A stretch of 33,573 nt of DNA from a virus, in IMG/VR virus record IMGVR_UViG_3300028027_000007, positions 1 through 33,573 of that record. One strand, given 5' to 3'. How positions within the stretch are numbered: position 1 is the first letter of the stretch; each line of letters starts with the position of its first letter. A program made the translations under genes and the position numbers. The notes under the pieces were generated by a model. The model saw only the letters and a list, made by a program, of their open reading frames with translations, had not been told where the DNA came from and made no database searches. Below are positions 3,046 to 9,201 of the stretch, piece by piece.

Positions 3046-3780
3046 ATGCTAAAATCAAAACGCAAACGCCTCTATTTCGACGTGGAAGTCAGCCCCAACG
3101 TGGGTTTCTTTTGGACTGCCGGTTACAAATTAAATGTAAGTCCAGAAAGCATAATTCAAGAACGTGCCATTATTTGCATCTGCTACAAGTGGGAAGACGA
3201 AAAAGAAGTTTATCACTTACAATGGGACGCAAAGCAAAACGACAAAAAGATGCTTCAAAGTTTTATTGAAGTAGCAAACACGGCTTCGGAGTTAGTAGGA
3301 CACAATGGCGATAAGTTTGACCTTGCTTGGATAAGAACCAGGTGCTTGTTTCACAAGATTGAAATGTTCCCTTCTTACGTTACTATCGACACGCTAAAGG
3401 TAGCAAGGCAAAAGTTTAGATTTAATAGCAATAAACTTAACTACATAGCTGACTACTTAGGGATTGGAACTAAGATAAAGACAGAATATAGTTTATGGAA
3501 GGACATCGTCTTGCATAAGGACAAAGTGGCTATGGCTAAAATGATTAAGTACTGCCAAAAAGATGTTGTGTTATTAGAGCAAGTATTTAACGCACTTAAA
3601 AACCACATAGAACCTAAAACACATTACGGGGTTATCTTCGGTCAAGACCGAGGCTCTTGCCCTGAGTGTGGAAGCGACGACTTAGTTATACAAATGAGGC
3701 GCACAACTGCAACAGGAGTAAAGAAAATATTATACAAGTGCAAAACTTGTTTTAAGATACATAGCAAAACCGACAAATAA
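3046..3780 (+). CDS. DEDDy 3'-5' exonuclease with C-terminal zinc ribbon
   Basis: This encodes 244 residues. The N-terminal part is an RNase H-fold exonuclease. Exo I is YFDVEVSP (Asp12, Glu14), Exo II is GHNGDKFD (Asp92), and Exo III is YCQKD (Tyr169, Asp173), which gives the DEDDy metal-binding set. The C-terminus carries a zinc ribbon with CPEC (Cys205, Cys208) and CKTC (Cys232, Cys235), likely for nucleic-acid binding. It probably trims DNA during replication or recombination, and could partner the ERF annealing protein at 4932. It begins 3 bases after the holin-like gene and is followed directly by the next ATG. No polymerase domain is present, so it is a standalone nuclease. Confidence 0.85.
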   Translation: MLKSKRKRLYFDVEVSPNVGFFWTAGYKLNVSPESIIQERAIICICYKWEDEKEVYHLQWDAKQNDKKMLQSFIEVANTASELVGHNGDKFDLAWIRTRCLFHKIEMFPSYVTIDTLKVARQKFRFNSNKLNYIADYLGIGTKIKTEYSLWKDIVLHKDKVAMAKMIKYCQKDVVLLEQVFNALKNHIEPKTHYGVIFGQDRGSCPECGSDDLVIQMRRTTATGVKKILYKCKTCFKIHSKTDK

Positions 3781-3984
3781 ATGGATAGTAAAATTCTTAG
3801 CTTAGTAATTGAAGATATGCGCAGCCGTGAGCAAGTAGGTAAAAAGAAGTACAACTGCACAATGGACAGGGAAGATTTATCGACAGGCGAATGGATAACA
3901 CATTTGAAGCAGGAACTACAAGATGCGATTTTATATTTAACCAAACTTGAACAAATACACAATGCGCCTCAAAAAGATATTTAG
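3781..3984 (+). CDS. Small helical protein, possible MazG-like fragment
   Basis: This encodes 67 residues and starts on the base after the exonuclease stop. The core (GEWITHLKQELQDAILYLTK) has an E-x-x-D pattern in an amphipathic helix, reminiscent of all-alpha nucleotide pyrophosphohydrolases (MazG/dUTPase-like) and of the N-terminal domain of phage dATP/dGTP diphosphohydrolases. It is much shorter than a complete enzyme of that fold and would need to oligomerise. A nucleotide-pool role is only a suggestion. The end overlaps the start of the acetyltransferase gene. Confidence 0.7.
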   Translation: MDSKILSLVIEDMRSREQVGKKKYNCTMDREDLSTGEWITHLKQELQDAILYLTKLEQIHNAPQKDI

Positions 3985-4390
3985 CTTTGGTAATATCTTA
4001 GATAGAGAAACCTACGAGCAGCTAAGGGAATTAGATTATACCAACCCAAACTTTAAGGGTTGCGGAGACGAGTTCCAGTTCAATCGTGAGTGGTGGGTTA
4101 TGCTTGACGAAGGCGAGATAGTAGCTTATTGTGGTTCTATTTACTCTAAAGGAATTTGCATATTTAATAGAGCGTGGGTTAAGAAATCACATAGAGGGCA
4201 GGGCATACAAAGACGAATGATTAAGACCAGGTTAAAGGCAGCATCTACCTTTTGTCATATAGCTATTACATACACAACGTTAGATAACTTCCCTTCTGCT
4301 AATAACCTAATCTCGTGTGGATTTAGGCTTTACTTACCCGAATATTCATACGGGGGACACGATAAACTTTACTTTCAAAAGCTTTTATAG
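3962..4390 (+). CDS. GNAT-family N-acetyltransferase
   Basis: This encodes 142 residues from the ATG at 3962; a TTG at 3947 would add five residues. The acetyl-CoA binding loop of the GNAT fold is visible as HRGQGIQRRM (residues 77-86), preceded by a beta strand (ICIFNRAWV) and followed by a helix and the SANNLISCGF segment typical of the fold's last strand. It would transfer an acetyl group from acetyl-CoA to an amine, but the target cannot be told. Phage GNATs can modify host proteins or small molecules. It is the last gene before a terminator at 4390. Confidence 0.85.
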   Translation: MRLKKIFSFGNILDRETYEQLRELDYTNPNFKGCGDEFQFNREWWVMLDEGEIVAYCGSIYSKGICIFNRAWVKKSHRGQGIQRRMIKTRLKAASTFCHIAITYTTLDNFPSANNLISCGFRLYLPEYSYGGHDKLYFQKLL

Positions 4391-7925: not shown

Positions 7926-8354
7926 ATGCTAAATAAAAAGAAGGATATATCAATAAGACAATTAAAGGAGTTATACTTCGCACAACGTAACACCCATTTG
8001 CAACTTCACGAAATGATGCAGCAACTTGGATTGTTAGGCATAGAAGATAACGAGCCTTTAGGGTTAGACATTGGTGCGAGAACTATTGTCAAATTGGTAG
8101 ACGAAGAATTTGAGTGCGATGTATTAATTAAGGATAGGAGTTTAAAAACAACGTTTGGTCGCAAGGCTGCTGCTTATTTACTCAGGAGATATACCAAGTT
8201 AAGCCTAAAGGAGATAAGCCAGTACACAGGAACAAGCGACCACACAACGGCTATCCATAACATAAAACAAGCGAATAACTTAATAGAAACTGAGGACTGG
8301 TTTAAAACTAAGATAAAAAAACTTTGCTTAAAATTAGAACTTAAAGAAATTTAG
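7926..8354 (+). CDS. Protein with standalone DnaA domain IV (DNA-binding)
   Basis: This encodes 142 residues. Residues about 78-135 match DnaA domain IV: GRKAAAYLLRRYTKLSLKEISQYTG is the helix-turn-helix, and SDHTTAIHNIKQA is the signature that reads DnaA boxes (Asp105-His106-Thr107-Thr108, His111). The AAA+ ATPase domain is missing, and the N-terminal 75 residues are unlike DnaA and may mediate partner binding. It could direct replication to a phage origin, recruit host DnaA or block it. It lies just before the structured RNA and the replication initiator gene. The domain assignment is strong; the role is inference. Confidence 0.85.
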   Translation: MLNKKKDISIRQLKELYFAQRNTHLQLHEMMQQLGLLGIEDNEPLGLDIGARTIVKLVDEEFECDVLIKDRSLKTTFGRKAAAYLLRRYTKLSLKEISQYTGTSDHTTAIHNIKQANNLIETEDWFKTKIKKLCLKLELKEI

Positions 8355-8356
8355 TG

Positions 8357-8466
8357 TATATTCGCAGCATAATAAGACACATTAACGAAGTACGAACCGA
8401 TAATGTGTTTAGTGGTTAAATAATAATAGCCTCGATAGTTCGTACCTATCGGGGTTTATTTTTTTT
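8357..8466 (+). ncRNA. Structured leader or small RNA with terminator before the replication gene
   Basis: A near-consensus -7 box (TATATTCG, 8357-8364) could start an RNA of about 95 bases. Hairpin 1 has arms ACACATTA (8377-8384) and TAATGTGT (8401-8408). Its 16-base loop contains GTACGAAC (8390-8397). The following terminator hairpin carries the exact complement GTTCGTAC (8438-8445) spanning its loop. A kissing or competing pairing of 8 bp is thus possible. The layout suggests an attenuator or a small RNA controlling the downstream initiator. No TTG is seen at a normal -33 distance, so the promoter is uncertain. Confidence 0.5.
8430..8466 (+). terminator. Rho-independent terminator abutting the replication gene start
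   Basis: The stem CCTCGATAG/CTATCGGGG (8430-8438 and 8446-8454; nine pairs, one G-T) with loop TTCGTAC is followed by a T-rich tract through 8466, one base before the ATG at 8467. Transcription into the replication gene must pass this hairpin. Confidence 0.8.
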
Positions 8467-9201
8467 ATGGCAAAAGACCCAGCATTTTTATTTTACCCAG
8501 GCGACTATGTTAGTGGCACAATGGGAATGACATTTGAAGAGAAAGGTGCATATATGGACCTATTAATGCTTCAATTTAATCGTGGTCATATGAATACTCA
8601 TATGATACAACATACGATAGGACACTTGTGGGAGCAAGTGAAATGCAAGTTTATTCAAGATGACGAAGGTTTATGGTACAATGTCAGGCTTGATGTTGAG
8701 AAGGAAAAGCGTAAAACCTTTACTGAGTCAAGGCGAAACAATATGAAACCTAAAAACAAACCTAAAGTTGAACCTTCATATGAAACTCATATGCAACCTC
8801 ATATGGACTCCCATATGGAAAATGTAAATGAAAATATAAATAAAGATATAATTACTAATAAAAGTAAATGTAGTTTTGAACAAGCTTATGAATATATGGC
8901 TAATAAAATTAGTTTAGATAAAGCTAAGATAGAAGCTGAAAAGTTTGTAAATTACTACGAAAGTAACGGATGGAAAGTAGGTAAAAACACTATGAAAAGC
9001 TGGACACACGCAGCAAATAATTGGATAAACAAAGCACAAGAATATGCAAAAGGAACTACAAATAATCAAAGAAAACTTAATAAGCACGAACTCGAAGAAC
9101 TTAGAAACTACAACTTTATCTACTCTACTTCCTATGGAGAAGGAGATTATGACCGCATTTGTAGGGGAAAGAATGAGGAACCTGAACCCTATAATATTTA
9201 A
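8467..9201 (+). CDS. Replication initiator-like protein, DUF1376 N-terminal domain
   Basis: This encodes 244 residues. Residues 1-75 match the DUF1376/YdaU family found in phage replication proteins (FLFYPGDYVSGTMGMTFEEKGAYMDLLMLQ), with the usual tryptophan-containing WYNVRLDVE segment ending it. A linker rich in Lys, Asn and His-Met pairs (about 85-130) follows. The C-terminal domain (about 137-200) resembles that of phage replisome organisers, with KFVNYYESNGWKVGK and a Trp-rich helix (SWTHAANNWINKA). It probably binds the phage origin and recruits helicase or a loader. Two sets of CATATG repeats lie inside this gene, as the lambda origin lies inside gene O. The ATG directly follows a terminator hairpin. 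Confidence 0.8.
   Translation: MAKDPAFLFYPGDYVSGTMGMTFEEKGAYMDLLMLQFNRGHMNTHMIQHTIGHLWEQVKCKFIQDDEGLWYNVRLDVEKEKRKTFTESRRNNMKPKNKPKVEPSYETHMQPHMDSHMENVNENINKDIITNKSKCSFEQAYEYMANKISLDKAKIEAEKFVNYYESNGWKVGKNTMKSWTHAANNWINKAQEYAKGTTNNQRKLNKHELEELRNYNFIYSTSYGEGDYDRICRGKNEEPEPYNI
8587..8616. repeat. Phased CATATG repeats, array 1 (candidate iterons)
   Basis: CATATG at 8587 and 8599 and the variant CATACG at 8611 are exactly 12 bases apart, inside the replication gene. At protein level they encode His-Met or His-Thr pairs every four residues. CATATG is palindromic, so sites on either strand are equal. Confidence 0.6.
8777..8817. repeat. Phased CATATG repeats, array 2 (candidate iterons)
   Basis: Four CATATG palindromes start at 8777, 8788, 8800 and 8812 (spacing 11, 12, 12). 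They encode HM pairs in the linker between the two domains. With array 1 they make seven related sites in 231 bases, a density far above chance. Confidence 0.65.

Follow-up and report, generated by a model that had tools for sequence, protein, structure and literature searches.

Phased CATATG arrays as candidate iterons of a phage replication origin within a DUF1376-type initiator gene

Inside a protein-coding gene, a repeated hexamer may simply be a repeated peptide. The stretch of DNA considered here, designated the window, comprises 33,573 bases from an IMG/VR virus record and contains, inside a gene for a putative replication initiator of the DUF1376 type, two groups of CATATG hexamers (Table 1). 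The question raised by this locus is whether these hexamers are kept as DNA or as peptide and, in the former case, which function they serve. Judged by comparative sequence analysis, the CATATG arrays very probably represent the iterons of a phage origin that is embedded in its own putative initiator gene.

Table 1 Features of the initiator locus (positions in the window)
Feature	Position	Strand	Remarks
Small protein with DnaA domain IV (DNA-binding helix-turn-helix)	7926-8354	+	PF08299, E 2.1e-11
Candidate promoter element TATATTCG	8357-8364	+	Sequence; TATATTTG in most relatives
Leader RNA	8377-8466	+	Hairpin 8377-8408; terminator-like hairpin 8430-8454 and T-run to the ATG
Replication initiator gene, 244 amino acids	8467-9201	+	DUF1376, PHROG matches, AlphaFold
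Array 1: CATATG at 8587 and 8599, CATACG at 8611	8587-8616	.	12-bp pitch; within the code for the winged-helix domain
Array 2 (main candidate iteron array): CATATG at 8777, 8788, 8800 and 8812	8777-8817	.	Linker; frames 1, 0, 0, 0
AT-rich tract, putative DNA unwinding element	8818-8870	.	87% A+T; starts GAAAATGTAAATGAAAATATAAAT

The initiator is composed of an N-terminal winged-helix-like domain (residues 1-94), a disordered linker (residues 102-130), and a C-terminal domain (residues 137-232). PF07120 (DUF1376) matches its N-terminus with an E-value of 1.2e-5 and 26 bits, which is under the curated gathering cut-off of 30.1 in Pfam. The protein also matches phrog_3992/9327, a primosomal protein, and in the comparison with DnaD-like helicase loaders phrog_8489 gave an E-value of 0.014. 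An AlphaFold model based on 64 sequences consists of a confident N-terminal winged-helix-like domain (pLDDT 91-98 at residues 21-80), a disordered linker with pLDDT values below 50 over most of its length, and a second helical domain. Structure comparison with VIA-align returned only generic winged helices, the N-terminus of DnaD among them, with weak similarity (Z 4.8), and the score for 2v79 (Z 4.8 over 72 residues) did not exceed those for other winged helices. Foldseek gave no match to the model at E ≤ 0.001, and a comparison of the family profile with the sequences of solved structures yielded nothing useful. By its predicted fold, the initiator is likely to bind DNA. Initiators sharing the N-terminal domain have very diverse C-terminal domains (alignment A1; window residues 130-244), and the divergence begins right after the array and the AT-rich tract, as if modules had been swapped at this point.

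All sites of the two arrays lie inside the initiator gene, with spacings of 12 and 12 bp in array 1 and of 11, 12, and 12 bp in array 2, and the site positions and spacings of 11-12 bases given in an earlier note on this DNA were correct throughout. Array 2 falls into the code for the disordered linker (residues 102-130), as does the first part of the AT-rich tract, and array 1 into the winged-helix code. The number of CATATG hexamers in the window is ordinary (7 vs 8.1 expected) and it is their clustering which is unusual. In a scan of all 64 palindromic hexamers, the sites at 8777-8812 formed the sole array in the window with at least three identical copies at distances of 10-13 bp; in dinucleotide shuffles of the whole window, any such array occurred in 1 of 300 and a four-site array in 0 of 300. 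All window sites, CATACG included, are identical in 37 of 37 distinct full-length ungapped sequences (window and relatives), a set of protein-query matches for which the peptide patterns of the query also included HM stretches, and in these same sequences the spacers of array 2 are 81% conserved vs the invariant sites. The claim that the sites encode His-Met pairs holds for five of the six CATATG copies and fails for the one at 8777, which is read in frame 1 (tCA TAT GAa) as Ser-Tyr-Glu, and CATACG at 8611 encodes His-Thr. The different reading frame of the copy at 8777, compared with the copies that encode His-Met, provides a hint that the DNA rather than the peptide is kept. The proposal that all sites face one side of the helix is valid roughly and not strictly, as a helical repeat of 10.5 bp implies a drift of about 120 degrees over the sites at 8777-8812.

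The relatives of this phage allow a distinction between both levels of selection. A pattern search for three CATATG hexamers in viral contigs, which was blind to gene content, returned at least 120 stretches; among the matches listed, the array was located within a DUF1376-like ORF in 84 of 120 stretches, and 8 of 8 matches in genome contigs lay within or beside such an ORF. In hundreds of related phages, the repeat and the adjoining easily melted stretch are kept and the encoded protein varies. For 54 non-redundant initiator genes, codons were shuffled synonymously within each gene, which leaves protein and codon usage fixed. The genes contain 246 CATATG hexamers vs 143 ± 5 in the shuffles, a total that is enriched by construction because the set was derived partly from CATATG-pattern loci. 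The tests on frames and codons allow for the protein, but not for the CATATG-based choice of the 54 genes: every frame is used (134/59/53), 112 out-of-frame copies were seen vs 30 expected, and phased pairs numbered 147 vs 55 ± 4, with adjacent spacings of nearly always 11 bp (75) or 12 bp (72). The 37 sequences obtained with the protein query agree with this result. The His codon preceding Met is CAT in 134 and CAC in 3 cases, vs 106:64 elsewhere; relatives keeping the same His-Met residues with other codons, which the earlier note had named as the refuting case, were looked for and not seen. In relatives, a shift of the pitch from 12 to 11 bp turns the peptide HM..HM..HM into HM..IC..TY..HM, and three loci (L071, L106, and L117) retain the CATATG site through Gly-Ile-Cys or Arg-Ile-Cys. 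The expectation that relatives keep the spacing while the protein varies was confirmed in this way, with CATATG present in all three frames at 11 or 12 bp and sometimes outside ORFs. The CATATG array is a DNA element. Since array 1 is not recognisable in L408 and L412, it cannot be a general requirement and may serve another purpose.

A similar conclusion holds for the sequence next to array 2. The AT content of positions 8818-8870 is equalled or exceeded by only 0.25% of all 53-bp stretches in the window. In the 54 relatives, the AT content of the tract is 81.5%, compared with 74.8 ± 0.4% in synonymous shuffles, and exceeds that of all 200 shuffles. Asn is encoded in the tract by AAT in 235 cases and by AAC in one (480/302 elsewhere), and for Glu GAA is favoured by 189:5 (678:233 elsewhere). 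The AT-rich tract is selected at the DNA level, and its AAT and GAA bias together with the excess of AT is the pattern expected of an unwinding element that is read through as protein. Positions 8818-8851 of the tract form a 12-bp tandem repeat (GAAAATATAAAT) with 2.8 copies. The tract is also kept where the array is non-coding, as an array with a GAAAATGAAAAT tract occurs outside coding sequence in some phages. Contig IMGVR_UViG_3300006147_000072 (G001; loci L010 and L414) encodes a DUF1376 initiator at 3592-4161, the linker of which contains neither the array nor the Glu-Asn tract; near 33.1 kb, about 29 kb from the initiator, three CATATG hexamers followed by GAAAATGAAAATATAAATG are present in non-coding DNA (L010:11505-11532). 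In this phage, the origin apparently lies apart from the gene for the initiator. The initiator ORF of G006 ends just upstream of the array, leaving array and tract untranslated, and the incomplete contigs of L080, L097, and L105 contain non-coding arrays with the tract, too.

Origins located within the gene for the initiator are already known for lambda, SPP1, Tuc2009, and TP901-1. In ori-lambda, iterons are followed by an AT-rich element inside gene O, with four 18-bp iterons and an AT-rich part of 38 bp (PMC3349717). The window resembles lambda in having iteron-like repeats and an AT-rich element within the initiator gene, but possesses 6-bp palindromes on an 11-12 bp lattice instead of four 18-bp iterons and, in addition, a second array in the code for the DNA-binding domain. 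The oriL of SPP1 is situated within gene 38 and comprises direct repeats and an AT-rich unwinding element, a distant second copy being oriR (PMC6316719); its likeness to the window, repeats plus an AT-rich element in the initiator gene, concerns the layout, and the distant non-coding array of G001 is reminiscent of the oriL/oriR pair. Tuc2009 rep (orf16) and TP901-1 orf13 encode replisome organizers, each gene containing the origin, and experiments identified the Tuc2009 origin, as reported in PMC8965321. Tuc2009 rep, which is annotated 'contains origin of replication', carries CAACCA at 341, 352, 363, and 374, i.e. at a pitch of exactly 11 bp and in frames 2, 1, 0, and 2 (L662:2438-2476). This layout is that of the CATATG arrays in the window and its relatives, with phased repeats in a comparable part of an initiator gene, and in the lactococcal phages, where the initiator is DnaD-like, the in-gene repeats act as origin; in contrast to CATATG, CAACCA is not palindromic, and the Tuc2009 and TP901-1 proteins are annotated as DnaD-like, whereas the window protein has its match, below the cut-off, to DUF1376. 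In the same scan, TP901-1 contained no hexamer array at 10-13 bp. As an independent and experimentally based case, Tuc2009 is the strongest reason for reading the window array as an origin.

Three sequence properties of in-gene iteron origins are found in the window and its relatives, namely regularly spaced repeats, frame-independent conservation of the DNA, and adjacent AT-rich sequence. The frame-free conservation of CATATG and the non-coding copies with an AT-rich tail support, at the level of sequence, the candidate iteron origin suggested in the earlier note. In the mechanism we propose, the winged-helix (DUF1376) N-terminal domain would bind the CATATG palindromes, each of them probably being occupied by a dimer, and several copies bound at intervals of about one helical turn would assemble into an ordered complex over 8777-8817. 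This complex would melt the adjoining AT-rich tract at 8818-8870, and the C-terminal domain, either alone or with the products of the next genes, would bring in the helicase. Array 1 may be a second contact or control site.

The region upstream of the initiator gene bears on the question of regulation. The leader RNA (z -3.4) is predicted to form kissing loops in which 8390-8396 pairs with 8439-8445 (GTACGAA/TTCGTAC). Seven pairs of the RNA show two-sided changes, five of them in the loop-loop helix, and among 14 relatives a compensatory change is present in five of the seven pairs of this helix with 99.4% of cells paired. An Rfam scan of the window, leader RNA included, gave no match. By eye, this layout recurs in leaders whose sequences are unrelated, e.g. 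in L012 with GTCGGAT/ATCCGAC. The leader RNA probably controls the supply of the initiator, and the candidate promoter at 8357-8364 resembles the -7 box of Bacteroidota. Operators can look like arrays of short palindromes, and autoregulation through iterons is common among initiators, so that the CATATG arrays might be operators for self-repression by the initiator or by another phage regulator, with no origin at this place. However, the arrays are located 120-350 bp downstream of the start codon and past the candidate promoter, they are tied to an AT-rich tract with its own DNA-level selection, and in G001 the pair of array and tract lies away from the gene. We therefore regard operators as a highly unlikely explanation.

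Alternatively, host DnaA or the DnaA-domain protein of the neighbouring gene might open the origin, with the initiator serving merely as helicase loader, and the gene for a DnaA domain IV protein directly upstream would fit this reading. In the clade of the window, a stand-alone protein of this kind is encoded at that position. Both neighbours described in the earlier note are present, i.e. a DnaA domain IV protein (PF08299) and a leader RNA that is structured and shows compensatory changes, but the arrangement does not depend on the DnaA-domain gene, as 43 of the 107 initiator loci that could be tested lack it within 2.5 kb. Moreover, no DnaA box (TTATNCACA, up to one mismatch) occurs between 6750 and 10470, and, as described below, the class of the repeat goes with the type of N-terminal domain in the initiator. 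Opening by DnaA is in consequence extremely improbable, and the DnaA-domain protein is at most an accessory factor. The GC skew, suggested as a check of the origin, is monotone with no turning point and uninformative in a one-directional gene set.

The relationship between repeat and initiator is illustrated by L177, which is similar to the window upstream and in the C-terminal domain, but differs in the N-terminal domain and is devoid of a CATATG array. Where array 1 would lie, AGGTT/AGGTT/CGGTT follow each other in steps of 11 bp, and the linker contains AACCTATAGGTT..AACCT. Its relatives contain the class AGGTT/AACCTA and a third class, TGCCRCGGCA, at the same two places, and other initiator classes have their own repeat at the array-1 codons. 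The two arrays of one gene share hexamers (551 vs 361 ± 20 in synonymous shuffles), also in genes of the non-CATATG classes (117 vs 50 ± 8). In the sequences compared, the iteron class is exchanged together with the N-terminal domain; the count of iteron classes was made with simple word rules, of which the GGTT/AACC rule is loose, and is a rough guide, and since array 1 is part of the code for the DNA-binding domain, some of the domain difference could stem from the repeat itself, which limits the inference of exchange. Partition and packaging sites can likewise be built as arrays of short repeats, but it is exceedingly unlikely that the arrays are such a site, centromere-like or for packaging, placed within the initiator gene by chance, given that a different N-terminal domain comes with a different repeat class and that 84 of the 120 blind matches listed place the array in initiator genes.

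Other hexamers were searched in the same manner. GATATC, which was chosen as a negative control, marks a different initiator family (phrog_26426/186; phrog_26426 is a replication protein), with 113 phased pairs vs 2.8 ± 1.7 in synonymous shuffles and sites at a pitch of exactly 11 bp in three frames (L210-L329). A second GATATC array is present about 183 bp upstream in L229, L237, and L240. GTATAC marks DnaD-like loaders, as in a sample of 45 ORFs about half had matches to PHROGs of DnaD-like helicase loaders, and its arrays have spacings of 11/11 bp in 44 of 120 cases among the matches listed (L421-L540). That GATATC and GTATAC mark further initiator families was unexpected. The true negative control is CTAATG, a scrambled and non-palindromic hexamer, for which 88 of 120 of the matches listed were in-frame 12-bp repeats in scattered unrelated genes; a few matches again fall in initiator linkers. 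That the His-Met linker is selected as a peptide and the DNA pattern is a by-product has almost no probability left, because, common as His-Met and Glu-Asn stretches are in these linkers, out-of-frame copies encode Ser-Tyr or Ile-Cys, G001 lacks the peptide and keeps the DNA elsewhere, codon choice is skewed only at array and tract, and a protein-repeat pattern looks like that of CTAATG, so that out-of-frame and non-coding copies refute this explanation for most of the signal.

A search of the open literature, with subscription papers mostly outside its range, found nothing that ties DUF1376 or CATATG to phage origins, and as far as this literature shows, the proposed role of DUF1376 at an origin, the frame-free palindrome lattice across a large group of uncultured phages, and the exchangeable repeat classes are new. 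On balance, we favour the generalisation that phage initiator families share a plan in which 6-bp, often palindromic sites are arranged on an 11-12 bp lattice through the code for the linker, in any frame and often beside an AT-rich coding tract, the site sequence being an exchangeable specificity that changes with the DNA-binding domain. If this plan is true, it would amount to a readable recognition code by which origins could be deduced directly from raw sequence, and in phages of Bacteroidota and Clostridia DUF1376 would be a large family of origin-binding proteins. As initiators that share a C-terminal domain have naturally exchanged their repeat class, the specificity of initiator and origin is directly testable. 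The iteron origin proposed here would explain why the linkers contain low-complexity His-Met and Glu-Asn stretches, these being the translation of origin DNA, provide a sequence signature to locate replication origins in metagenomic phage genomes without experiment, and assign a likely function to DUF1376, a domain of unknown function in many uncultured phages.
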